Assembly: GCF_024220515.1 (NCBI RefSeq)
Contig: NZ_JAMXOT010000037.1
Coordinates: 1 to 35,130 of the forward strand
Source: Oscillatoria sp. HE19RPO
Lineage (GTDB): Bacteria; Cyanobacteriota; Cyanobacteriia; Cyanobacteriales; Laspinemataceae
DNA: 35,130 bases
Reading direction: 5' to 3'
Shown: positions 16,791 to 33,178 of the stretch, piece by piece
Position numbering within the stretch: the stretch's first letter is position 1
How the letters are laid out: every line of letters begins with the position of its first letter
Position numbers and translations under genes: made by a program
Notes under the pieces: generated by a model
The model's input: only the letters and a program-made list of their open reading frames with translations
Databases searched by the model: none
Told to the model about the DNA's origin: nothing

Positions 16791-17240
16791 TTATCGAAGT
16801 CTCGGTAATCGTGAGGACTGATTAAATTGTTTACATAATTTGAGTTCTCGGCTGTTATCGTCCCAATTTACTTGATCAAAAATTTGGTGTAAAATAAAAA
16901 GCCCTCTGCCGCATTCTCCTTCATCATGAGGCAAATGTTCCTCGGGCTCGACGTGACAAGGACAAGCACAGGCAAAGCCTTTTCCTTGATCCGCGATCGC
17001 CCACCAGTATTCATCTGCGATCGCACTAAATCGCACTACCACAGTTTTTCGGGGATCTAAATTGTTTCCATGCTTGGCAGCATTGACTAACGCTTCCTGA
17101 AGTCCGAGACGGATTTCAGCCTGCCATTGGCGAGGAATATCAACCAACAGCAGATCTAGGATTGGACACAAATAAAGCGTGGAAGCAAAGCTAATGGTGT
17201 TCCAGCTACGCTCTATTGGACGAGGTGAAATAGCAATCAC
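16791..17240 (-). CDS. RsbW-like anti-sigma factor / serine kinase (GHKL ATPase)
   Basis: A 149-residue protein of the HATPase_c_2 type. The N-box is EALVNAAKHGN (Asn53), the G1 box DQGKGF (83-89, Asp84) and the G2 box ECGRGLFIL (109-117). These are the ATP-binding motifs of RsbW/SpoIIAB-like proteins, which bind sigma factors and phosphorylate anti-sigma antagonists. An insert between G1 and G2 holds a CACPC cluster, a His and a further Cys, which is unusual for RsbW but which I recall in cyanobacterial members. No sigma factor or STAS antagonist lies next to it. The SpoIIE-type phosphatase at 27866-33178 is a possible counterpart. Confidence 0.85.
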   Translation of the reverse strand: MIAISPRPIERSWNTISFASTLYLCPILDLLLVDIPRQWQAEIRLGLQEALVNAAKHGNNLDPRKTVVVRFSAIADEYWWAIADQGKGFACACPCHVEPEEHLPHDEGECGRGLFILHQIFDQVNWDDNSRELKLCKQFNQSSRLPRLR

Positions 17241-19328: not shown

Positions 19329-19889
19329 CTACTTCAACTTGGTTTTGATCAGGGTCACCACTTGACTCATCTGTTTCTTTAATGCATTAATTTCAGCCTG
19401 CATCTTAGCCATTTGCTGCTTGAGGGCTTTAATTTCAGCGGCACTGGCTCCTCCAGCCGCTCCACCAGGGGCGGCTTGAGGGGGTGCAGCACCGGCAGGT
19501 TGCCATTTTTTAGCCTTTGCCATTGAAGTTTTAATCGCTTCAATCAGGGATTTCTTCTCGAAAGGCTTCTCGATAAACTCAAAATACTCGAACGGTTCGG
19601 CAATTTTTTCCGCAACTTCCTCCTTGCGTCCTGACATCAGAACGAGTGGAGTCATCTTTCCTTCAGTTTTGGAGATCTTATCCAACTGCTGAAACACCTC
19701 CCAACCGCTAACCTTTGGCAATAGGAAGTCCAACATAATCAGATTAGGGCGTTCTTCGCGGATCTGTTTGAGTCCTTGTTCGCCGTCTTTTGCTTCTAAC
19801 ACTTCAAAGTTACCGGCAGGCAGCATATCTCTGACCATGCGCCGGATCACTGCACTATCATCGATAACTAGGATCTTGTGACTTGCCAC
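19329..19889 (-). CDS. Response regulator with a C-terminal coiled coil
   Basis: A 186-residue protein. Residues 1-125 form a receiver domain: acidic pair D10/D11 in VIDDS, phospho-acceptor D54 in IMLDFLLPK, S86 in LVLMSG and K108 in FIEKPF. An Ala/Pro/Gly-rich linker follows (about 131-150), then an amphipathic helix of about 36 residues (ALKQQMAKMQAEINALKKQM and on) that probably oligomerises the protein. No DNA-binding domain is present. The output must therefore run through partner proteins or the coiled coil. No histidine kinase is adjacent. It is divergent from lipA. Confidence 0.9.
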   Translation of the reverse strand: MASHKILVIDDSAVIRRMVRDMLPAGNFEVLEAKDGEQGLKQIREERPNLIMLDFLLPKVSGWEVFQQLDKISKTEGKMTPLVLMSGRKEEVAEKIAEPFEYFEFIEKPFEKKSLIEAIKTSMAKAKKWQPAGAAPPQAAPGGAAGGASAAEIKALKQQMAKMQAEINALKKQMSQVVTLIKTKLK

Positions 19890-20244
19890 GACTGACTCCT
19901 CTGGGGGTGAGTGAAAGCTGTAATTCTAACAAGAGAGTTTTTTCATTATGCCTGCCCTGGGGATATTGATGCACCCGCGCCAAAACTAGACGGAGGGCAT
20001 GAGAGATCCCATAAATGACAGCTTTCTTGATTGTATTGGCCTTTGCGCCCGGGTTGATCTCCCTCTTGGCTCTTTTTGCACGAACCGGGTCTATGCTAAC
20101 CTCATCATGATTGCAATTCCCTCTGTGAAGGGTGTCTGGGATTACAGATCCACCGGGGCAAAGGCTTAGAGTAAAATAGGTTCGCTCCGCTTCAGTCCTA
20201 GGCTGGAATGGAGCAGTTTTTACCCCCTTCACCCTTTTAACGCC
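19890..20244. other. 355-bp divergent spacer between response regulator and lipA
   Basis: No gene or strong repeat is visible on careful reading. It should hold the promoters of both divergent genes. A long minus-strand frame through it (19858-20808) also crosses lipA and is not coding-like. Confidence 0.4.
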
Positions 20245-21177
20245 ATGTCTGCTCAACCCAACCCCCCAAATCCCACTGCTGCCACGCCATTGCGGAGTGA
20301 AATCGAGGCAATGCCGGACTGGTTGCGTCGCCGAGGTATTGGCAAGGCGAGTGAGTTGTCCGAGGTGCAACGAATTATCAAGCAACGGCAGATCCATACG
20401 ATTTGTGAAGAGGGCCGTTGTCCCAATCGCGGGGAATGTTATGGAAATAAGACGGCGACGTTTTTGTTGATGGGTCCGACTTGTACTCGCTCTTGTGGGT
20501 TCTGTCAGGTGGATAAGGGTCATGCGCCGATGCCGTTGGACCCCCAGGAACCGCAAAAGGTGGCAGAGGCGGTGCAGTTGTTGGGGTTGCGGTATGTGGT
20601 GCTGACTTCGGTGGCGCGAGATGATTTGGCGGATGGCGGTGCGGGATGGTTTGTGGCAACGATGAATGAAATTCGCGATCGCACCCCAGAAACTCAGATA
20701 GAGGTGCTCACGGCAGATTTCTGGGGGGGACAGGGGGCGGAGTTGGCACAGTTGCAACGGGAGAGAATTGCAACGGTTGTGGCAGCAAAACCAGCTTGTT
20801 ACAACCATAATATTGAGACAGTGGGCCGGTTACAAGGGCGGGTACGTCGAGGGGCGAAGTTGGAGCGCTCTTTGGCGGTGTTGAGGATAGTTAAAGAACT
20901 GGATGCCACGATTCCTACGAAGTCGGGTTTGATGTTGGGACATGGGGAAACCCAGGATGAGATTATTGAGGCGATGGCGCAGTTGAGGGCGGTGGATTGC
21001 GATCGCCTGACTTTGGGGCAGTATATGCGGCCCTCGTTGGAGCATTTGCCGGTGCAGAAATATTGGACACCGGAGGAGTTTGAGGAGTTAGGAGCGATCG
21101 CCCGAGACATGGGGTTTTCTCATGTGCAGTCGGGTCCCCTGGTTCGCAGTTCCTATCATGCCGGGGAAGCGGAGTAA
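20245..21177 (+). CDS. lipA: Lipoyl synthase
   Basis: A 310-residue radical SAM enzyme that inserts two sulfur atoms into the octanoyl group on lipoate-dependent proteins. Both iron-sulfur motifs are intact. The auxiliary-cluster motif is C54-x4-C59-x5-C65 ([13 protein letters not shown]) and the radical-SAM motif is C80-x3-C84-x2-C87 (CTRSCGFC). The C-terminal RSSYHAGE is also conserved. The rest matches LipA, including [10 protein letters not shown]-like ([15 protein letters not shown]) and [12 protein letters not shown] blocks. The length is normal. The GC-rich coding sequence produces a long open frame on the opposite strand. No lipB is seen in the window. Confidence 0.97.
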
Positions 21178-21311
21178 ATTGGGCGACTGGTTCTGCTAGA
21201 AATCCATCCCTTTTGTTGCTTTATTCCCCTCTTCCAAAAGGGTGAAATGATGATCGCAACTCCCCTCTTATGGGAGTCCCATCAAAGCTTGGAACGTGCT
21301 TTTCTAGCATT

Positions 21312-21731: not shown

Positions 21732-21751
21732 TTAAACTCAAACTATCAATT
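21732..21751 (+). promoter_or_regulatory. 20-base motif shared by both giant genes
   Basis: TTAAACTCAAACTATCAATT occurs here and, with one change, at 27772-27791. It lies 345 bases upstream of the first giant gene and 75 bases upstream of the second. It may be a conserved control element, or part of the duplicated unit. Confidence 0.4.
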
Positions 21752-22095: not shown

Positions 22096-25000
22096 ATGCT
22101 GACTCTTCCTGGTGTTGCCGTTCAAGTGCAAATCTATGAAAGTGCTAACTCCCTCTTATATCGAGGGATTCGTGAGCAAGATAACCAATCTATTATCCTA
22201 AAACTTCTCAAAGAAAATTATCCCACTCCTCAACAACTGATTCGCTATCGCACGGAATATGAAATTACTAAATCCCTGAATGTATCCGGAGTGGTTCAAG
22301 TCTATGATTTGCAAAAATATCAAAATCGCCTCGTCATGTTGATTGAGGATTTTGGAGGCGAATCTTTAAGCTATTGGATGCAGCATCGCCAATTTACCTT
22401 ATCCAATTTTTTGCAAATTGCCATTAAAACCACCGAGGCCCTGGCCCAGATTCACGCTGCCAATATTATTCATAAAGATATCAATCCCGGTAATCTGGTT
22501 TTCAACCCCACAACGGGACAGATTAAAATTATTGATTTTGGAATTTCTACCCCATTCAACCGGGAAAATACTACACTCAAAAATCCCAATGGCCTGGAAG
22601 GGACCCTTGCCTATTTATCTCCGGAACAAACCGGCAGAATGAATCGCTGTGTGGACTATCGCAGTGACTTTTATTCCTTGGGAGTCACTTTTTATGAACT
22701 GCTGACCCACCGCTTACCCTTTGAAAGTACCGACCCTTTAGAATTAATCCACTGTCATATTGCCAAACAGCCCATTCCCCCCCATCTACTGGTGGAAAAC
22801 CTTCCTACAGAAGGGAAAAGTTGGGAACGGGGAATCGATAATATTCCGCCAGTTCTCTCGGAAATTATTCTCAAACTGATGGCAAAAACCGGAGAAGAAC
22901 GGTATCAAAGTGCTTATGGATTAAAAGCCGATTTAGAATTTTGTTGGCAGCAACTCCAGAACACTGGACAAATTTCTCCCTTCCCGATTGCGCTTCAGGA
23001 TATTTCCGATAAATTTCAACTCCCTCAAAAACTCTATGGCCGAGAAGCAGAAATTGCAGCCTTAATTTCTGCTTTTGAGGGGGCAAGAAGGCAAAGTCAA
23101 CTGATGCTGATTGCTGGATATTCCGGCATTGGAAAATCAGCTTTAGTGCAGGAACTTTACAAACCGATTACGGCTCATCGGGGCTATTTTATTTCGGGGA
23201 AATTTGACCAATATCAGCGGAATATTCCCTATAGTGCTTTGGTGCGATCGCTACAACAGTTAATCAAACACCTCTTAACTGAAAGTGAACCTCAACTTAA
23301 ACAATGGCAGGAGAAACTATTAACCGCATTAGGGGTCAATGGTCAAGTCATTGTGGAAGTCATCCCAGAAATTGAATTAATCATTGGCAAGCAACCCCCG
23401 GTCCCCACCCTCGGTCCCAACGAGTCCCAAAATCGGTTTAATTTAGTCTTCCAAAAATTCATTAAAGTCTTTACGCAACCGGAACATCCTTTAGCCTTAT
23501 TTATTGATGATTTACAGTGGGCAGATGGGGCATCCTTGAACTTAATTCAACGACTGATGGCAGGGGCAGTCCCGGGACTATTTTTAATTGGGGCCTATCG
23601 AGATAATGAAGTCTCTCCCGGTCATCCACTGGAGTTAATGGTGGATGAAATGACTAAAAATGGAGCTATTATTGAGCGAATTTCTTTATCTCCCTTAGAG
23701 TTACCGACCATTGCCCAATTAATTGCCGATACCCTGAAATCAACCCCAGCAGCGGTGATGGAACTGGCGGAATTAGTCCAGTTTAAAACTGGGGGCAATC
23801 CCTTTTTCATGAATGAGTTTTTAAAGTCTCTTTATACGGAAGGACTGCTACAGTTTAAAACCCAAGTTTTTGAGGGTCCTGATGCCCATTTTGCTCTCCC
23901 TGATTCTCCAAAAAACCTAGGCATAGATAGGGTTGGATGGTTCTGGGATTTAGGGCAGATTAAGGCCCGAAATTTTACAGATAATGTAGTGGAACTGATG
24001 ACTGGAAAAATTCAAAAGCTACCCGAATCAACCCAATTATTAGTGAAATTAGCCGCTTGTATTGGCAATGAGTTTGACTTAAATCTTTTAGAATTAGTCA
24101 GTCAGCAATCTTTGAAAAAAACGGTAGAAGATTTAAAGGCAGCGGTTGCAGAAAATTTAGTCATTTCTCAAATAAATCAAGGGGAAATCGAGTTAATCCT
24201 GACTGAAGAAGATTATTCCTACTGTTATTTACCTCGAAAGGAATATCCGGCCCTGATTTATCAGTTCGTTCACGATCGCATTCAACAGGCGGCTTATTTT
24301 CTGATTCCGGACGCCGAACGAACTCGGGTTCATCGAGATATCGGACAAATTCTTCTGGAGAATACTCCCCCCAGTCGCCGGGAAGAAAAACTCTTTGACA
24401 TGGTGAATCAATTTAATTTTGCCCTAAACTTAATCACCGAATCCGAGGAAAAATATAAATGGGCAAATTTAAATTTAATGGCTGGGGAAAAAGCTAAACT
24501 ATCGGCTGCTTATCAACCGGCTTTGACTTATTTAAAAGTAGGGATAGAGTTATTAGAAGAGGACAGTTGGCACCAGCATTATCCTTTAACCTTATCTCTG
24601 TATGCAAAGGCCGCAGAAGTGGCTTATTTGAATACAGATTTTGAGTTAATGGACCAAATGATTGAGGCAGTTTTGAGTCAGGCTCAAACGGTTTTAGATA
24701 CGGTGGCTGTGTATGAAGTTAAAATCTTGGCTTATAATGCCCAGAGTCAATTTAATGAGGCGATCGCCATTGGATTAAAAGTCTTGAAACTCCTGGGGAT
24801 TAACCTCCCCAGTCATCCTCACACCGGCCATGTTTTATGGGGTCTGTTGCAGACCAAATTAGCCCTCGGATTTAAACCCGTTGCCAGCTTAGTAGATCTG
24901 CCCTTGATGACCGATGTTTATCCCAAAGCGGCCATGAGTATCCTGGGAAAAATCACCTCCTCTGCCTATTTTGCCGCCCCTTTAATGTTTCCCTTGATTG

Positions 25001-27537
25001 TATTTAAAAATGTCACCTTATCCATTAAATGGGGCAACAGTTCAGAATCCGCTTATGCCTATAGTAGTTATGGGGTAATTCTCTGCGGAGTCGTGGGACA
25101 ATTGCAGACGGGATATCAATTTGGTCAACTCTGCCTCCAGGTTCTTTCTCAACTGAATGCCCGAGATGTGAAAGCCAGAACAGAATTTGTGGTAGGGGCT
25201 TTAATTCAACATTGGATTGACCCCCTCCCTTCAGTCTTAAAACCTCTGCTGAATGCCTACCAAATGGGTTTAGAAAATGGAGATTTGGAATATGCCGCTT
25301 ATGCGGCTTGTCACTATTGCTACAATGCCTTTTTAAGCGGGCAAGAGTTAGTCCCCTTGGAATCACAAATGGTCACCTATGCCACCTGCATTCAGGAAAT
25401 GGGACAGATGCGGGTTTTGAATTTACAAGAAGTCTTTCATCAGGGAGTGCTGAACTTACTGGGAAAATCTGCGAATCCTTGCACCTTGAAAGGGACCGCT
25501 TTTGATGAAGCAATTATGCTGCCAGAACTTGAAAGCCGGAATGACCGAACGGCTATTTGTTATGTTTATTTTAATAAATTAGTCCTCAGTTATCTGTTTG
25601 GAGATTTAGAACAGGCACTGAACTCGGCTAATCTCTGCGAAGCTTATCTGGATGGAGTAACTGCTTCTCCCGTGGTGATTTATTTTTGTTTTTATGATTC
25701 TCTGATTCGGTTGGATATTGCAGCAAAATCCGACCCTGTGTCCGTAAAAATGTTTCTCAAAAAAGTTAGAGAAAACCAGAAGAAGCTTAAAAAGTGGGCG
25801 CGAATTGCTGGGATGAATAATGCCCATAAATTTGAGTTAATTGAGGCAGAACGGTATCGAGTGTTGGGCAAAAAACAACAGGCTGCCGCCTGCTATGACT
25901 CCGCCCTTGAGTTGGCTCAAAAACGGGATTGCCCCCCCGAGACTGCCCTAATTTATGAACGGGCGGCTAAATTCTATTTTGCCCAACGAAAAATATTAAT
26001 TGCTAAAGCCTATTTGCAGGAATCTCACTATTTTTATCAACTCTGGGGTGCAGTGGCTAAGGTGAAGCAGTTAGAGGAATTATATGATAACTTCCTCACT
26101 CCAGAAAATCGGAAAATTCCCGATACGCAACAAACGATATCGGCTAGTGCAGCAGACTTACTGGCTCATCTGGATATCTCAACAATGATGAAGGCATCCC
26201 AGGCGATTTATGGGGAAATTGTTTTAGAGAAATTGCTCTCTAGTTTAATGAAGATTGCCATTGAGAATGCGGGGGCACAACGGGGTTGTTTGATTTTATC
26301 CCATCAGGGACAGTTGAGGATAGAAGCGGAGGGAACGATTGATGGCGATCGCATCACCGTGTTGCAATCAATTCCCCTGACTGAATCCGACCGGGTTGCG
26401 GTGGCGATCGTGAATTATGTGGCCCGAACTCAAGAAGCCATTGTCTTAAATAATGCCACCCAAGAGGGTGATTTTACCAATGATTCCTATATTCAAAACA
26501 ATCAGATTCAATCTATCCTCTGTGTTCCCCTGATTGATGGCGGCAAGCTGGTTAGTATTGTTTATTTAGAGAACAATCGCACCACTGGAGCCTTCATCCC
26601 GGAACGGGTAGAAATTTTAAAGCTGCTCTCAGGACAAGCGGCGATTTCTATTCAAAATGCCAAACTTTATTCCGAAGTCCGCAATAATGAAAAGCATTTA
26701 GCCCAACTGAATCAAGCTTATGAACGATTTGTTCCCCGTCAGTTTCTCCAGGTTTTAGATAAAGCGAGTATTGTCGAGGTGGAATTAGGGGACCAAGTTC
26801 AGGTGGAAATGTCGGTGTTGTTTTCTGATATTCGCGACTTTACGACCCTGAGTGAAAGTATGACTCCGGAAGAAAACTTTAAATTTATTAATTCCTATTT
26901 ATCTCGAATGGAACCGGCAATTTCTGAGCATTCAGGCTTTATTGATAAATATATCGGGGATGCAATTATGGCCCTCTTTAGTGGAGAAGCAGATAATGCC
27001 GTTAAAGCTGGAATCTCTATGCTGCATCGCCTCGTTGATTACAATCAGCATCGGGCTAATTGTGGCTTTGCACCCATTAAAAATGGGATTGGGATTAATA
27101 CTGGGTCTTTAATGCTAGGAACCGTCGGGGGAGAAAATCGCATGGATGGGACGGTGATTAGCGATGCGGTGAATTTAGCCTCCCGGGTGGAAAAATTGAC
27201 GAAAAATTATGGTGTTTCGTTATTAATTACGCACCAAACTTATTCGCGGTTAATTCATCGCGATCGCTATGCCATTCGCCGCATCGATCGCGTACAAGTC
27301 AAAGGAAAATCGCAAGAGGTGACCGTGTATGAAGTGTTTGATGCCGACTCCCCAGAAATCAAAGCCGGAAAGTTAGCCACCTTAGACCGATTTACGGAAG
27401 CATTATCCCTATTTGAGGACGAAGATTTTCTAGGTTCAGCCCGGTTATTGGCTTATTGCTTGAATCAAAACCCGGGCGATCGGGTGGCACATATCTATTT
27501 TGAACAGTGTCAAAGGAGGTTTACTGGATTACGCTAA
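22096..27537 (+). CDS. Giant Ser/Thr kinase-STAND ATPase-GAF-adenylate/guanylate cyclase
   Basis: An 1813-residue cytosolic protein. The kinase domain (about 10-285) has Lys36, HKD (126-128, catalytic Asp128), Asn133 and DFG (147-149), but no Gly-rich loop. A STAND/AAA_16-type ATPase follows, with Walker A GYSGIGKS (341-348) and Walker B LALFIDD (466-472). A long helical, TPR-like region reaches about residue 1340. The GAF domain is at about 1360-1525. The class III cyclase is at about 1570-1745, with metal Asp1578 (FSDIRDF) and Asp1622 (DKYIGDA), purine-specificity Lys1618 and Thr1686, and Asn1693/Arg1697 (NLASR). The Lys/Thr pair is what I recall for cyanobacterial adenylate cyclases, so cAMP is likely. 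The start MLTLPG... QIYESANS matches relatives. Confidence 0.92.
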   Translation: MLTLPGVAVQVQIYESANSLLYRGIREQDNQSIILKLLKENYPTPQQLIRYRTEYEITKSLNVSGVVQVYDLQKYQNRLVMLIEDFGGESLSYWMQHRQFTLSNFLQIAIKTTEALAQIHAANIIHKDINPGNLVFNPTTGQIKIIDFGISTPFNRENTTLKNPNGLEGTLAYLSPEQTGRMNRCVDYRSDFYSLGVTFYELLTHRLPFESTDPLELIHCHIAKQPIPPHLLVENLPTEGKSWERGIDNIPPVLSEIILKLMAKTGEERYQSAYGLKADLEFCWQQLQNTGQISPFPIALQDISDKFQLPQKLYGREAEIAALISAFEGARRQSQLMLIAGYSGIGKSALVQELYKPITAHRGYFISGKFDQYQRNIPYSALVRSLQQLIKHLLTESEPQLKQWQEKLLTALGVNGQVIVEVIPEIELIIGKQPPVPTLGPNESQNRFNLVFQKFIKVFTQPEHPLALFIDDLQWADGASLNLIQRLMAGAVPGLFLIGAYRDNEVSPGHPLELMVDEMTKNGAIIERISLSPLELPTIAQLIADTLKSTPAAVMELAELVQFKTGGNPFFMNEFLKSLYTEGLLQFKTQVFEGPDAHFALPDSPKNLGIDRVGWFWDLGQIKARNFTDNVVELMTGKIQKLPESTQLLVKLAACIGNEFDLNLLELVSQQSLKKTVEDLKAAVAENLVISQINQGEIELILTEEDYSYCYLPRKEYPALIYQFVHDRIQQAAYFLIPDAERTRVHRDIGQILLENTPPSRREEKLFDMVNQFNFALNLITESEEKYKWANLNLMAGEKAKLSAAYQPALTYLKVGIELLEEDSWHQHYPLTLSLYAKAAEVAYLNTDFELMDQMIEAVLSQAQTVLDTVAVYEVKILAYNAQSQFNEAIAIGLKVLKLLGINLPSHPHTGHVLWGLLQTKLALGFKPVASLVDLPLMTDVYPKAAMSILGKITSSAYFAAPLMFPLIVFKNVTLSIKWGNSSESAYAYSSYGVILCGVVGQLQTGYQFGQLCLQVLSQLNARDVKARTEFVVGALIQHWIDPLPSVLKPLLNAYQMGLENGDLEYAAYAACHYCYNAFLSGQELVPLESQMVTYATCIQEMGQMRVLNLQEVFHQGVLNLLGKSANPCTLKGTAFDEAIMLPELESRNDRTAICYVYFNKLVLSYLFGDLEQALNSANLCEAYLDGVTASPVVIYFCFYDSLIRLDIAAKSDPVSVKMFLKKVRENQKKLKKWARIAGMNNAHKFELIEAERYRVLGKKQQAAACYDSALELAQKRDCPPETALIYERAAKFYFAQRKILIAKAYLQESHYFYQLWGAVAKVKQLEELYDNFLTPENRKIPDTQQTISASAADLLAHLDISTMMKASQAIYGEIVLEKLLSSLMKIAIENAGAQRGCLILSHQGQLRIEAEGTIDGDRITVLQSIPLTESDRVAVAIVNYVARTQEAIVLNNATQEGDFTNDSYIQNNQIQSILCVPLIDGGKLVSIVYLENNRTTGAFIPERVEILKLLSGQAAISIQNAKLYSEVRNNEKHLAQLNQAYERFVPRQFLQVLDKASIVEVELGDQVQVEMSVLFSDIRDFTTLSESMTPEENFKFINSYLSRMEPAISEHSGFIDKYIGDAIMALFSGEADNAVKAGISMLHRLVDYNQHRANCGFAPIKNGIGINTGSLMLGTVGGENRMDGTVISDAVNLASRVEKLTKNYGVSLLITHQTYSRLIHRDRYAIRRIDRVQVKGKSQEVTVYEVFDADSPEIKAGKLATLDRFTEALSLFEDEDFLGSARLLAYCLNQNPGDRVAHIYFEQCQRRFTGLR

Positions 27538-27865
27538 CTTCTGGCGTTTTTACGACTCTCCCTCGCCGGTTTGCTGTGGGGCGATCGCACCACTCTTCCT
27601 TCGACCGATATGCTCTCCTAGAGCATCGGTACAGTATCCGTTTAATCGCACCACGGCTTTTGTCACTAATTTGCTGCTAATTGGTGGAAATTTTGGAAAC
27701 AATCCGGGTTCTAACTTTTACTCCCCGGAAACACTAGAAAAAACTGGCCTTCTTGCAGTCTACCGATTAAGTTAAACTTAAACTATCAATTCCTTCGAGG
27801 GTGGTGCTTTAGTACCAGTCCGAAATACCACAAAATTTGATTCTTTACTCCCCCCTATTCTAACT
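27538..27865. other. 328-bp spacer between the two giant genes
   Basis: Nothing coding is supported; one HIP1 site and the second copy of the shared 20-base motif (27772-27791) are present. The last bases before the ATG (CTAACT) are also found before the first giant gene (GTAACT), so the duplicated unit probably begins just upstream of the start codon. Confidence 0.4.
27772..27791 (+). promoter_or_regulatory. Second copy of the 20-base shared motif
   Basis: TTAAACTTAAACTATCAATT differs at one position from 21732-21751. It ends 74 bases before the ATG of the phosphatase-ending giant gene, a distance that could suit an upstream control site. Confidence 0.4.
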
Positions 27866-30800
27866 ATGCTGACTCTTGCGGGCGTTACCATTCAAACTCA
27901 AATCTATGAAAGTGCCAACTCCATTGTCTATCGCGGGATCCGGGATGTAGATTCTCAACCGATTATCCTAAAAATTCTCAAAGAAAATTATCCCACTCCC
28001 CAAGAACTGGCCCGCTATAGCACCGAATATCAGATTACCCAATCCCTAAATGTCCCGGGGGTGGTGAAGGTTTATGATTTGCAGAAATATCAAAATACCC
28101 TCGCCATGTTTGTCGAGGACTTTGGAGGCGAATCCCTAAAACATTGGCTGAGTGAACGCAGCTTTACCTTAGAAGAGTTTCTGCATCTGGCACTCGCCAT
28201 CACTGAAGGATTAGGACAAATTCACGGGGCGAATATTATCCACAAAGATATTAACCCGAGCAATATTGTTTTTAATCCAAACACCGGACAGGTTAAAATC
28301 ATTGACTTTGGCATCTCCACTCAATTAACCCGAGAAAATACTACTCTAAAAAATCCCAACATCCTAGAAGGCACTCTCGCCTATCTCTCCCCGGAACAAA
28401 CGGGGCGAATGAACCGCTGCATTGACTACCGCAGTGACTTTTATTCCCTAGGGGTGACCTTCTACGAACTGCTCACCCACCGACTACCTTTTGAAACGAC
28501 CGACCCCCTGGAATTAGTCCACTATCACATTGCTAAACAGCCGATTCCTCCCACGGATATTGAGGCCAGCATTCCCCCAGTCCTTTCAGACATGATCCTC
28601 AAGCTGATGGCAAAAACAGCGGAAGACCGCTATCAGAATGCTTATGGATTAAAAGCAGATTTAGAGGAATGTCTGCGTCAACACAATGCAGATATTGTAT
28701 TAAATTTTTCCTTGGCCCGTCACGATGTTTCGGATAAATTTCAATTACCACAAAAGCTCTATGGCCGAGAGTCAGAAATCCAGAGTTTATTATCAGCCTT
28801 TGCCGAAAGTAGTATCCAAAGTCAACTGATGCTGATTGCGGGATATTCCGGCATTGGCAAATCGGCCTTAGTCCAAGAACTCTATAAACCGATTACGGAA
28901 AAACGGGGTTATTTTATTTCGGGGAAATTCGACCAATATCAGCGAAATATTCCTTACAGTGCGATAGTTCGAGCCTTTCAAGGCTTAGTCAAACAACTGC
29001 TGACAGAAAGTGAAAGCCAGCTCAATCAGTGGCGGGACAACCTGTTAGGTGCAGTGGGAGTGAATGGACAAGTGATTGTGGAGGTGATTCCAGAAATAGA
29101 ATTAATTATTGGACAACAACCGGAGGTTCCGGAACTGGGGCCAAATGAGTCCCAAAATCGGTTTAACTTAGTGTTTCAGAATTTCATTAAAGTATTTACT
29201 CAACCCGAACATCCCTTAGCCTTATTTATTGATGATTTGCAATGGGCGGATGGAGCATCTTTTAAGCTGATGCAATTGTTGATGGGTTCTCGATCGCCGG
29301 GATTATTCTTAATCGGGGCCTATCGAGATAACGAAGTTTCTGCCGCCCATCCCCTGATGTTAACCTTAGATGAAATTGCCAAAACTGGCGCAGTCATCCA
29401 GCGTATTTCTTTGGTCCCCTTAAACTTAGCAACCATCGCCCAATTGATTGGAGATACCCTCAACTGTGACTTAGAAACAGTCCAACCCCTCGCCGAGTTA
29501 GTTCAAGGCAAAACCGGCGGAAATCCATTTTTTATGAATGAATTTTTGAAATCTCTCTACACCGAAGAACTGGTGGATTTTGACCTAGAAACTCTGCGGT
29601 GGGAGTGGGATTTAGAGCAAATTCAAGCCCGGGGCTTCACGGATAACGTGGTAGAACTGATGGTGGATAAAATTCAAAAACTGCCTCAAGACACCCAAGA
29701 ACTGTTAAAACTGGCTGCTTGTACTGGCAACCAGTTCGACTTAAACATTATCGGGTTAATTTGCGAAAAATCTCTAGCAGAAATGGTCACGGAGTTGCAA
29801 TCAGCCGTTGCCGAAAATTTGGTGATACCCTTGGGGAATTTAGGAGAATTTTCCTTGACGATCGCCGAGTCAGAATTTTTGACCCCTGACTTCATCGAAA
29901 CTCACCGAAAATCTTTACAATACAAATTTGGCCATGACCGAATCCAGCAAGCGGCCTATTCTCTAATTGACGAGGTTCAAATTCCCTATCTTCATCGGAA
30001 AATTGGAGATGTAATTCTCCAAAATACGCCGAAACATAAGCAAGAAGAGAAAATTTTTGATATCGTTAATCAACTCAATTTTGGCGTTGAATTAATCAGC
30101 GAACAGGCTCAAAAAAATGAACTGGCTGAATTAAACCTGATGGCTGGGAAAAAAGCGAAACTCTCCACCGCTTATCAGCCTGCTTTGAATTATTTGCAAG
30201 TGGGGATAGAACTCTTAGGAACCCAGAGTTGGCAAGACCAGTATGCCCTGACCCTTTCCCTCTATGAAGAAGCGACGGAAGTCGCCTATCTCAAAGCCGA
30301 TTTTGCCTTGATGGATCAATGGGTGGAAACCGTAGTCGCGCAAGCCAAAACTGTCCTCGATAAGGTCAAAGTTTATGAGGTAAAAATTCAAGCGGGGGTA
30401 TCCCAAAGCAAGTTTAATGAAGCCTTGGATATCGGACTAGAAGTCTTGAGCTTATTCGGAATCAAATTACCGAGGCAGCCTAAAACCGTTGATATTTTAT
30501 TAGGACTGATTCGGACAAAACTGATGATTGGGTGGCGACCGATCGCCAGTTTACAAGACCTCCCTCCCATGACCCAGCCTGAGATTCAAGCCATCATGGG
30601 AATTTTATCGAAACTCAATACCGCCATCTACTTTTCCGCCCCTTTATTGTTTCCCTTGGCTGTTTTTCAACAGGTCAATTTATCGATTAAATGGGGCAAT
30701 ACTTCAGAATCTGCTTATGCCTATAGTTGCTATGGATTGATTCTCTGTGGCCTGGGAGATATTGAGTCAGGCTATCAATTTGGTCAACTGGCCCTCAACT

Positions 30801-33178
30801 TCCTCAAACAACTCAACACCAAAAAAGACAAGCCCCGAACGGAATATCTGGTTCATAGCTTTATTAAACATTGGAAAGACCCAGTGCAAGAGATGTTAAA
30901 CCCAATGTTAGGAGCTTATACCGTCGGGCTGGAAACGGGAGATTTGGAATTTGCGGCCTATTCTGCGTTCCATTACTGCTACTATAGTGTTTTAATTGGC
31001 GCTGAACTGACTCAACTGGAGTCAGAGATGGAAATCTATGCTCAAGTCATCGAGGAAACAGGACAGGAAAGAACGACGGACGGGCATCGGATCTTTTATC
31101 AAACTGTTCTGAATCTGCTCGGTCAAGCTGAAAATCCTTCTCATTTAATCGGAATGGCTTTCGATGAACAGGTGAGGATGCCCATCCTCCAGAGTCGCAA
31201 AGACCGGAGTACAATTTTTGTGATATACTTCAATAAATTAATCCTGTGCATTCTGTTTGGAGAGGTTGAGCAGGCGATCGCCAATGCGGACCTAGCACAA
31301 GCGTATATCGATGCCGTTCCCGCTACGCTGCTCCTTTCTCACGTTTGTTTTTATGATTCTTTAGCGCGTTTAGCCCGGGCATCCGATGCACCCCGATCGC
31401 AGAAAAATTCCTGGATTCGCCAAGTTTTCCGCAACCAGAAAAAACTTAAAAAATGGGCGCATTATGCTCCGCAAAATAATTCCCATAAATATTGGCTGGT
31501 AGAGGCGGAACTCTGTCGGGTACAAGGCAAAGATGTACAGGCGAGCAATTACTACGATAAAGCCATCATCCTAGCCCAAGAAAATAACTATCTCCACGAA
31601 GCAGCGATCGCTTATGAACTCGCCGCCAAATTCTATCTCTCCAAAGGGAAAGAAAAAGAGTTGACTGCCATCGCCTATATGCAGCAAGCTCGCTACACTT
31701 ATCAACTCTGGGGTGCTACGGCAAAGGTTCAGGATTTAGAAACGCGATATGGCGAGTTCTTTATTACCCGGGAACGGGTCAGCACAAACAGTACAACCAA
31801 ATCCGTCGCCAGTACCACTGGATCCGGGTCTAGCCTCGATATTGCCACAGTAATGAAAGCTTCTCAAGCCATTTCCGGGGAAGTTTTGCTGGAGAAATTA
31901 CTCTCTAGCTTGATGCAAATTCTCATCGAAAATGCTGGCGCACAACGGGGCTACTTAATTTTATCAATTCAGAGCCAATTGCTCATCGAAGCGGCAGGAG
32001 AAATAGAAAATGAGCGGGTCACGGTGTTGCAATCGATTCCCGTAGCCAACTGTCAGACCCTTTCCGAATCGATTGTCAATTATGTAGCCCGAACTCAAGA
32101 AACCGTGGTATTAAATGATGCCACGCGCAATGGCAATTTTACCAGCGATGCTTATATCCAACAGGCTCAACCCAAGTCAATTCTATGCGTCCCCCTAATT
32201 GATAGAGGTAAACTCGTCAGTATTGTTTATTTAGAAAATAATAGCACCACGGGAGCCTTTACCCCGGAACGAGTGGAAGTGTTACAGTTGTTATCGGGCC
32301 AGGTAGCAATTTCTATTGAAAATGCCCGCTTGTATCAAACCTTGGAAGAGAAAGTCAAGGACCGAACTGCCCAATTAGCCAATGCCAATGCAGAAATTAC
32401 GATTCTGAATGAGCGGTTAAAAGCGGAAAATATCCGGATGGGGGCGGAGTTAGATGTGACGCGGCAACTGCAAAAAATGCTCTTACCTAGCCAATCAGAA
32501 TTGGATGCGATTGAGGGTTTAGATATTGCTGGATTTATGGAACCGGCAGATGAAGTGGGGGGGGATTACTATGATGTGATCAAAAGTGGGGAGCGCACCA
32601 AAATTGCGATCGGGGATGTGACGGGACATGGGTTGCAAAGTGGGGTGGTGATGATGATGGCTCAAACGGCGGTCCGGACGTTACTGGAAGGAGATTTTAC
32701 GGACCCGGTACAATTTTTAGATGTCATCAACCGCACGATTTATAAAAATGTCCAGCGCATCAATGCTGATAAAAATATGACTCTGGCGCTGCTGGATTAT
32801 CATCAAGGCAAATTAACCTTAAGTGGGCAGCATGAAGAGGCGATCGTCATGCGTGCCGATGGAAGCGTAGAGTGTATTGATACCGTTGATTTAGGATTTC
32901 CAATAGGTCTCATTGATGAGATTGCGGATTTTGTGAGTACCACGGAGATTGAGTTAAATTCTGGGGATGTGGTGGTGTTGTACACCGATGGAATTACAGA
33001 GGCGGTGGATAGCAATTTGGTACAGTATGGTCTTGAGCCGATGATTGCATCAATTCGCCATCATTTACAGGGTAATGCGCGGGAAATTTGTCAAGCTGTG
33101 ATTGAGGATGTCCGGCGACATATTGGCGGGCAGAAGATTTATGATGACCTCACCTTAATTGTTCTCAAACAGAAGTAA
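27866..33178 (+). CDS. Giant Ser/Thr kinase-STAND ATPase-GAF-SpoIIE phosphatase
   Basis: A 1770-residue paralogue of the preceding protein. The kinase domain again has Lys36, HKD (Asp128) and DFG (Asp147). The ATPase has Walker A GYSGIGKS (326-333) and a LALFIDD Walker B. A helical TPR-like region leads to a GAF domain (about 1323-1490). Then it departs from its neighbour: a coiled-coil linker (LEEKVKDRTAQLANANAEIT) leads into a PP2C-like SpoIIE/RsbU phosphatase (about 1550-1770). The four metal-site motifs are present: Asp1567 (VGGDYYD), Asp1584 (IGDVTGHG), Asp1708 (YTDGITE) and Asp1761 (YDDLTL). The likely job is to dephosphorylate a phosphoserine protein, such as an anti-sigma antagonist, in response to signals sensed by GAF or ATPase. 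The partner is unknown. Confidence 0.92.
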   Translation: MLTLAGVTIQTQIYESANSIVYRGIRDVDSQPIILKILKENYPTPQELARYSTEYQITQSLNVPGVVKVYDLQKYQNTLAMFVEDFGGESLKHWLSERSFTLEEFLHLALAITEGLGQIHGANIIHKDINPSNIVFNPNTGQVKIIDFGISTQLTRENTTLKNPNILEGTLAYLSPEQTGRMNRCIDYRSDFYSLGVTFYELLTHRLPFETTDPLELVHYHIAKQPIPPTDIEASIPPVLSDMILKLMAKTAEDRYQNAYGLKADLEECLRQHNADIVLNFSLARHDVSDKFQLPQKLYGRESEIQSLLSAFAESSIQSQLMLIAGYSGIGKSALVQELYKPITEKRGYFISGKFDQYQRNIPYSAIVRAFQGLVKQLLTESESQLNQWRDNLLGAVGVNGQVIVEVIPEIELIIGQQPEVPELGPNESQNRFNLVFQNFIKVFTQPEHPLALFIDDLQWADGASFKLMQLLMGSRSPGLFLIGAYRDNEVSAAHPLMLTLDEIAKTGAVIQRISLVPLNLATIAQLIGDTLNCDLETVQPLAELVQGKTGGNPFFMNEFLKSLYTEELVDFDLETLRWEWDLEQIQARGFTDNVVELMVDKIQKLPQDTQELLKLAACTGNQFDLNIIGLICEKSLAEMVTELQSAVAENLVIPLGNLGEFSLTIAESEFLTPDFIETHRKSLQYKFGHDRIQQAAYSLIDEVQIPYLHRKIGDVILQNTPKHKQEEKIFDIVNQLNFGVELISEQAQKNELAELNLMAGKKAKLSTAYQPALNYLQVGIELLGTQSWQDQYALTLSLYEEATEVAYLKADFALMDQWVETVVAQAKTVLDKVKVYEVKIQAGVSQSKFNEALDIGLEVLSLFGIKLPRQPKTVDILLGLIRTKLMIGWRPIASLQDLPPMTQPEIQAIMGILSKLNTAIYFSAPLLFPLAVFQQVNLSIKWGNTSESAYAYSCYGLILCGLGDIESGYQFGQLALNFLKQLNTKKDKPRTEYLVHSFIKHWKDPVQEMLNPMLGAYTVGLETGDLEFAAYSAFHYCYYSVLIGAELTQLESEMEIYAQVIEETGQERTTDGHRIFYQTVLNLLGQAENPSHLIGMAFDEQVRMPILQSRKDRSTIFVIYFNKLILCILFGEVEQAIANADLAQAYIDAVPATLLLSHVCFYDSLARLARASDAPRSQKNSWIRQVFRNQKKLKKWAHYAPQNNSHKYWLVEAELCRVQGKDVQASNYYDKAIILAQENNYLHEAAIAYELAAKFYLSKGKEKELTAIAYMQQARYTYQLWGATAKVQDLETRYGEFFITRERVSTNSTTKSVASTTGSGSSLDIATVMKASQAISGEVLLEKLLSSLMQILIENAGAQRGYLILSIQSQLLIEAAGEIENERVTVLQSIPVANCQTLSESIVNYVARTQETVVLNDATRNGNFTSDAYIQQAQPKSILCVPLIDRGKLVSIVYLENNSTTGAFTPERVEVLQLLSGQVAISIENARLYQTLEEKVKDRTAQLANANAEITILNERLKAENIRMGAELDVTRQLQKMLLPSQSELDAIEGLDIAGFMEPADEVGGDYYDVIKSGERTKIAIGDVTGHGLQSGVVMMMAQTAVRTLLEGDFTDPVQFLDVINRTIYKNVQRINADKNMTLALLDYHQGKLTLSGQHEEAIVMRADGSVECIDTVDLGFPIGLIDEIADFVSTTEIELNSGDVVVLYTDGITEAVDSNLVQYGLEPMIASIRHHLQGNAREICQAVIEDVRRHIGGQKIYDDLTLIVLKQK

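Follow-up and report, generated by a model that had tools for sequence, protein, structure and literature searches.

The closest described systems to the genes considered here are the HstK-type dual kinases, which combine a Ser/Thr kinase, a GAF domain and a histidine kinase, and for which we know of no signal assigned so far to the large helical region. In STAND ATPases a superhelix senses and the ATPase switches, the sensor of the MalT-like members being of the TPR type, and bacterial sensor proteins shuffle their domains over long times. Prokaryotic STYK architectures have been the subject of an earlier survey (PMC1262709), diversifying NTPase conflict systems have been reported in multicellular bacteria (PMC7159879), and shuffling of GAF and HisKA domains was inferred in 2007 for cyanobacterial Ser/Thr kinases (PMC2176072), a work that, in the portion considered here, covers such shuffling and does not include the exchange of helical cores. 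Among the matches listed in our literature search, neither helical-core exchange in this chassis nor the architecture itself was described.

The window, that is, the whole stretch of DNA analysed here (35,130 nucleotides), is one entire contig (C391) of the 7.67 Mb genome of Oscillatoria sp. HE19RPO (own genome, G000), and it carries two giant genes in tandem:

22096..27537, + strand: P0001 (CYC), kinase-AAA_16-helical-GAF-class III cyclase, 1813 aa (ORF and Pfam)
22150..22908, + strand: P0001 Ser/Thr kinase domain, aa 19-271 (Pfam)
23029..23565, + strand: P0001 AAA_16 (STAND-type) ATPase (Pfam)
23962..26130, + strand: P0001 helical region, bounds approximate (segment alignment)
26224..26652, + strand: P0001 GAF domain (Pfam)
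26806..27324, + strand: P0001 class III nucleotidyl cyclase, active-site motifs present (Pfam and 3r5g alignment)
27866..33178, + strand: P0002 (SPO), kinase-AAA_16-helical-GAF-SpoIIE phosphatase, 1770 aa (ORF and Pfam)
27914..28633, + strand: P0002 Ser/Thr kinase domain, aa 17-256 (Pfam and PknB alignment)
28754..29299, + strand: P0002 AAA_16 (STAND-type) ATPase (Pfam)
29663..31810, + strand: P0002 exchanged cassette, about codons 600-1315, type A here and type B in other species
31889..32317, + strand: P0002 GAF domain (Pfam)
32588..33169, + strand: P0002 SpoIIE/PP2C phosphatase, metal-site motifs present (Pfam, motifs and solved relatives)

Pfam matches follow the same order in both proteins (Pkinase, AAA_16, a long unmatched region, GAF), which is the HstK-like chassis order, and BLASTP aligns the two at 62% identity (956/1545) up to the point where the GAF domain ends. 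Unlike the HstK-type proteins, neither has a C-terminal histidine kinase, the hallmark of HstK itself, according to Pfam; its place is taken in P0001 by a cyclase (Guanylate_cyc, 69.8 bits) and in P0002 by a SpoIIE phosphatase (133.7 bits), and these outputs are 17% identical. Pfam and BLASTP hence agree with the original prediction of two giant genes that share one chassis order and diverge abruptly where the GAF domain stops, one into a class III cyclase and the other into a SpoIIE domain. Histidine-kinase versions of the chassis, which it called common, form the commonest class (59/114) among the chassis proteins fetched. Walker A and B motifs were read by eye in the AAA_16 domains of both proteins, as was a coiled-coil-like linker between the GAF domain and the output of P0002, and a predicted TPR-like superhelix follows the ATPase. 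Searched alone against Pfam, the helical region of P0002 gave no match. An AlphaFold model of P0002 residues 560-1320, made with an alignment of 48 rows (pLDDT 90.9, pTM 0.83), predicts that the cassette consists of a short mixed helix/strand part, lying between the ATPase and the TPR-like portion, where a winged helix would be expected in a STAND NTPase, followed by an all-helical superhelix, and the best 50 Foldseek rows include TPR superhelices, 6mfv among them (best E 2.5e-5, TM by query 0.12-0.40). Judging from its fold and family, this superhelix is likely to be the sensor.

The catalytic motifs of both genes look intact, as had been predicted. When the P0001 cyclase is aligned with the solved cyclase CyaB (3r5g), the two Asp motifs for metal binding coincide, as do the specificity residues Lys and Thr and the transition-state Asn and Arg. 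Lys and Thr at the specificity positions denote ATP as the substrate, and their presence in P0001 suggests ATP here as well, that is, predicted cAMP synthesis. The Asp motifs of the P0002 SpoIIE domain (GGDYYD, GDVTGHG, YTDG and DDLTL) were identified by eye, and solved PP2C/SpoIIE relatives match this output. Both kinase domains retain the Lys, the HxDxxxxN motif and DFG, as judged for P0002 by alignment to PknB and for P0001 by eye; the usual glycine loop was seen in neither kinase domain.

Segment by segment, P0001 and P0002 are 76% identical in the kinase, 76% in the ATPase, 56, 55 and 48% along the helical region and 71% in the GAF domain. When the 19 near-full-length chassis proteins of the own genome (the pair and 17 others) were aligned, the two were mutually closest in all six chassis segments, by a narrow margin in the last helical third (48 vs 47% for the next paralogue), and in 60-residue sliding windows other paralogues sometimes equal or beat their similarity. 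An N-terminal tree of 26 rows places CYC, SPO and a third tandem gene (PCY, described below) in a single clade (95/95) apart from the chassis of other genera, here represented by four out-of-genus rows, mostly from P0001 searches and all with cyclase outputs. These data support a duplicated chassis with different outputs, as first proposed, and the contrary case, in which the chassis halves would be no closer to each other than to homologues elsewhere, was examined and did not apply within the genome. The distance of the pair to cyclase chassis of other genera hardly exceeds that between its own members, the P0002 ATPase being 82% identical to that of G096:C24 vs 78% to that of P0001, and the duplication is therefore old and not recent. 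An old local duplication behind P0001 and P0002 is well supported by sequence comparison. The nearest outputs within the own genome lie elsewhere, in L016 for the cyclase (66%) and in L013 for SpoIIE (67%). Because none of the 13 out-of-genus genes fetched with the P0002 helical region ends in SpoIIE (11 have cyclase and 2 histidine-kinase outputs), SpoIIE was probably the acquired output of the two. The own genome also contains a decayed chassis gene (L030, L032; G000:C420), whose matched stretch is interrupted by eight stops.

The neighbourhood of the pair comprises genes for a class II tRNA synthetase, a PfkB protein, a receiver protein, a radical-SAM protein and an Na/Ala symporter, together with an RsbW-like gene, and these neighbours are 85-100% identical between genomes, where fetched and found; the tandem array therefore varies within a fixed neighbourhood. 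Three congeneric genomes (G003, G004 and G005) present three genes in the order PCY, CYC, SPO, in which PCY, open in all three, encodes a chassis-GAF-PAS-cyclase protein of 1912-1923 aa (PAS seen in the G004 protein) upstream of CYC. Elsewhere, G006 has CYC and SPO, G007 only CYC and G002 only SPO, and the locus is fragmented in G001. In the window, a remnant of PCY is found upstream of P0001:

21315..21551, + strand: C-terminal remnant of PCY, last 79 codons with one in-frame stop (70-75% identity to G003/G004/G005)

Positions 19661-21257 align at 93% with the sequence that precedes PCY in G004. The third tandem gene has been lost from this genome, and the locus was once larger. Outside the tandem locus, G007:C39 (L242) carries a 619-aa frame with a cyclase part 78% like that of P0001, followed on that strand by shorter frames (512, 372 and 256 aa); judging by its cyclase match, this is perhaps a broken PCY-like gene.

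The comparison of the orthologues across the genus points to an exchange within the genes themselves. The seven SPO orthologues agree closely at both ends in all 21 pairs (kinase 88-93, ATPase 85-93 and GAF 89-95%), but their helical part falls into two types, A (G000, G004 and G001) and B (G002, G003, G005 and G006); type A members are 83-92% identical to one another, type B members 69-91%, and members of different types 58-70%. The PCY genes of G003 and G004 carry type B (64-89% to SPO type B), and that of G005 has a version of its own, type C, which is 43-56% identical to the helical parts of the remaining tandem genes (60% to the two other PCY in the last third). The CYC helical region is of a single type, 84-99% alike in the seven genomes with the gene, and its placement among other genera is uncertain (89/73). 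The SPO clade is recovered at 100/100 in the N-terminal tree and at 100/99 in the GAF tree and is rejected in the helical tree (27 rows, p-AU 0.00015), and the PCY clade, recovered in the GAF tree (100/99), is likewise rejected by the helical segment (p 0.0004), the AU-tested groups following gene identity but having been tested after the identity table was viewed. In the N-terminal tree PCY forms no clade, PCY_G004 standing beside SPO (97/97), and a joint PCY is not rejected (p 0.10); the fronts are therefore not entirely free of exchange.

At the DNA level, type A and type B sequences lose identity at about codons 600-640 and recover it at 1280-1320. For SPO of G000 vs G005, identity falls from 92 to 74 and 61% across codons 561-680, stays mostly below 80% inside the core (81-84% at codons 1201-1280) and reaches 90% from codon 1321. 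Maximal chi-square values for the four type-B genes against PCY_G004 and SPO_G004 were 498-689, with 30 permutations giving at most 22, and the best-scoring segments had widely scattered starts (codons 212, 421, 463 and 638) and ends at 1091-1240; SPO_G000 against PCY_G004 and SPO_G005 gave 198 (null at most 15). The test of SPO_G000 with CYC_G000 and SPO_G004 (31 vs a null of 29) yielded no signal of exchange with CYC. The helical core of SPO is, by these comparisons, recombinant between shared, fixed ends. A break at the output junction alone was rejected as a description of the locus, given the second and larger exchange in mid-gene. No small neighbour gene that co-varies with the core was found between CYC and SPO, and the 328-base spacer between them is alignable in type A and type B genomes alike. 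The distribution of the two types would also fit one switch on the species tree.

The source of the cassettes is less evident. No sequence above 47% to type A was found elsewhere in the eight genomes of the genus, and among 291 genomes of the order, with at most four candidates scored per genome, the best out-of-genus match reached 62%; type A may therefore be of outside origin. Type C is 43-60% identical to all other tandem genes, and it is possible, if rather unlikely, that cassettes came mainly from other lineages by recombination with foreign DNA and not from tandem neighbours. Against this, type B is common to SPO and its tandem neighbour PCY, and the SPO genes G002:C34 and G004:6.84M share a core (87%) on N-termini that are 64% identical, G002:C34 giving with G004:6.84M and G003:C26 a maximal chi-square of 968 (segment 712-1177). 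We consider it likely that P0001 and P0002 are survivors of an old array of tandem receptor kinases of the STAND type, in which recombination between copies replaces the helical middle as a cassette.

The generality of core exchange was addressed with a wider set of 114 chassis proteins, being those fetched from 8 genomes and not all that these contain, which resolve into 15 singletons and 19 groups of similar N-termini. Pairs with N-termini at least 82% identical (n=263, mutually non-independent) were called discordant when the helical mean lay more than 15 points, or the lowest helical third more than 25 points, below the N-terminus. Discordant cores were detected in 47 pairs and 7 groups, distributed by class as 19/122 for histidine-kinase (HK) groups, 18/33 for SPO and PCY of this locus, 7/62 for SPO, 3/3 for HK with one unclassed member, 0/28 for HK+CYC and 0/15 for CYC, the cyclase gene of this locus. 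Confinement to SpoIIE-output genes was rejected, because histidine-kinase groups are affected too (16/20 pairs in one of them). Four further families of the chassis (three with HK outputs, one with HK plus cyclase), chosen for agreeing lengths and not as a random sample, had 0/105 pairs flagged, and the L013 SpoIIE group (10 proteins, tandem in three genomes) had none discordant among 45 pairs; its setting is illustrated by L230, L232 and L233, where two to three SpoIIE chassis genes stand in tandem without core exchange.

These figures bear on the view that the helical region is merely fast-evolving, without any exchange. It is indeed the least conserved chassis segment between paralogues, but 12 of the 19 groups contain no discordant pair, and in the eight of these for which a median is given the helical part is only 0.2-9.1 points below the N-terminus. 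The view is also contradicted by the rejection of the SPO clade in the helical tree and by a core in PCY_G004 that is 77-89% like that of SPO_G005 and 57-65% like that of SPO in its own genome. In another genus, moreover, two genes of G238 (L253 and L254) have DNA-identical cores over some 520 codons (about 681-1200), with 90-96% identity in the adjacent DNA, 83-92% in most of the GAF domain and 51-91% in the output, and with protein identities of 81% in the kinase and 63% in the output. Rapid evolution alone is accordingly a very improbable account. The identical core of L253 and L254 may stem from an exchange of very recent date or from a mis-assembly at a repeat, and several of the genomes are drafts or MAGs, in which long repeats can give mis-joins. 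We nevertheless attach very little credence to assembly chimeras of repeated genes as a general cause, given that three genomes carry type A and four carry type B, and that G004, assembled in 3 contigs, has SPO of type A, PCY of type B and an array at 2.85-2.89 Mb on one contig.

Recombination between tandem copies remains our preferred reading, and this G004 array (2.847-2.886 Mb) contains pairs of kinases with similar ends (89-99%) and dissimilar cores (32-54%). Six of its ORFs were compared, the seventh being omitted on account of a 13-base overlap. The g2 and g4 proteins are 92% identical in the kinase, 92% in the ATPase, 47, 32 and 54% along the helical region, 99% in the GAF domain and 96% in the output, with DNA identities of 86-99% outside codons 601-1260 and 41-79% inside; for g1 and g6 the DNA values are 83-100% outside the core, with the final bin dropping to 64%, and 46-76% within it. 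In all, seven large tandem ORFs are seen at G004:C1 2847135-2886034 (L225, L226, L284). In genus g24, the cyclase chassis of G096:C15 and G032:C8 compare with four others at 81-89% in the kinase and 88-91% in the output, but at 76-79% in the ATPase, 46-64% in the helical region and 70-74% in the GAF domain.

Outputs, too, are exchanged between chassis. Eleven SpoIIE proteins have outputs that are 92-99% identical on four chassis types, and same-genome pairs on unlike chassis have output DNA identities of 95.2 (G000), 95.1 (G003), 96.1 (G002) and 92.1% (G004), comparable with the 91.3-95.1% of orthologue outputs, on N-terminal DNA of 59-66%; in the other four same-genome SpoIIE pairs compared, outputs were 74.7-75.9% identical. 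Other arrangements of outputs were also observed. In Microcoleus and Tychonema (L091, L101, L104, L108), a chassis-histidine-kinase gene has beside it a stand-alone cyclase gene (590-608 aa) with 69-70% identity to the P0001 output, that is, an output in trans. In another phylum, a Leptospiraceae MAG (L098, 17739-19214) has a weak SpoIIE-like frame (24%) directly after a chassis-cyclase gene, with both outputs thus side by side. Frames of 1045, 1124 and 1055 aa at G004:C1:6647852, G006:C5:332949 and L100 consist of helical region and output, apparently without kinase or ATPase.

The original prediction had further proposed that one input may drive both outputs, and this part is not upheld. Along the chassis, the pair is least alike in the presumably sensing helical region (48-56%), and the SPO core varies in type between species and is held in common with PCY, while CYC keeps its own; for these reasons P0001 and P0002 probably listen to different signals, each having its own input. 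An operon with one input was likewise not supported, since the helical cores of the pair differ and CYC keeps its own type. That a single sensor module was duplicated and rewired, so that one stimulus would drive both cAMP synthesis and dephosphorylation, is consistent with the high identity of the kinase, ATPase and GAF domains and with a conserved element upstream of both genes, but it seems quite unlikely in view of the divergence of the helical region and of a P0002 core that differs in type from several sister-species orthologues when P0001 has one type throughout. The element in question is a 20-nt sequence:

21732..21751, + strand: 20-nt element upstream of P0001, TTAAACTCAAACTATCAATT
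27772..27791, + strand: same 20-nt element upstream of P0002, TTAAACTTAAACTATCAATT

None are expected in shuffles of the window, and with up to 2 mismatches these are the only two sites in the whole genome (a reversed control pattern gave 1 match). At the same tolerance the element lies upstream of 6/7 CYC and 7/7 SPO genes of the genus, the sole CYC without it being that of G001, where the frame is broken and the anchor was set inside the gene; its distances to the genes are not all comparable, as some gene starts are mis-set. It was found at 0/3 PCY genes when whole loci were scanned with up to 4 mismatches. This conserved element would be compatible with co-expression of the pair.

A possible partner for the SpoIIE output of P0002 is the RsbW-like kinase encoded 5 kb upstream of the pair:

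16791-17240, - strand: RsbW-like HATPase_c_2 protein, 149 aa

The genome has three small genes of this kind above the cut-off. The one given here is syntenic at 95-98% in the four relatives for which the stretch was fetched (G003, G004, G006 and G007), but it is still present in G007, which lost SPO.

Taken together, these observations are best explained by a building plan in which a Ser/Thr kinase, an ATPase switch, a TPR-like superhelix and a GAF relay are followed by an exchangeable output. The ancestor probably had a class III cyclase at its C-terminus, and one copy would have acquired the SpoIIE phosphatase by a fusion just where the GAF domain stops. The conserved kinase/ATPase end and GAF/output end would then serve as arms for homologous recombination between copies, by which the helical core is swapped as a unit and, on occasion, the output too. 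A signal bound by the superhelix would open the ATPase switch and be relayed through the GAF domain and linker to the output, P0001 presumably reporting its own input as cAMP and P0002 its own as dephosphorylation of a partner protein, and cassette exchange would alter what a fixed output listens to. Orthologues in fixed neighbourhoods thus keep front and output with another version of the core between them, and the clearest cases allow breakpoints to be placed with a precision of tens of codons. Such natural chimeras offer material for probing which signal the large helical region perceives in HstK-type proteins and for asking whether arrays diversify recognition in filamentous cyanobacteria.

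Among known systems outside the HstK type, the STAND ATPase with a TPR sensor of 6mfv resembles P0002 in having an ATPase followed by a TPR-like superhelix, but its global match to the P0002 core is weak (TM 0.29), and P0002 has enzymes at both ends. In fungi, Mak2 and Mak3 begin with a Ser/Thr kinase and also contain a GAF domain (PMC5383687). A likeness to the Chk1/Mak2/Mak3 group is also seen in the PCY protein of G004, which matches Pfam TPR_CHK1 below the cut-off; these fungal proteins, however, end in a histidine kinase and a receiver, unlike P0001 and P0002. In the fungal NLR repeats of het-d and het-e, a fixed effector end is combined with variable recognition repeats; a further work deals with such repeats (PMC12222747). 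It is tempting to postulate a combinatorial receptor repertoire in which, within arrays of giant STAND kinases with fixed ends, the superhelix is swapped time and again by recombination, with boundaries that recur and with selection favouring novel recognition, as a bacterial counterpart of NLR repertoires; we put this forward tentatively and regard it as unlikely on present data. Were it true, rapidly changing cues (phages, peptides of neighbours, self/non-self) would feed cAMP, phosphatase or histidine-kinase outputs. The parallel has its limits in any case, since in fungal NLRs it is single repeats that vary, whereas here whole superhelices appear to swap between paralogues and the outputs are signalling enzymes.
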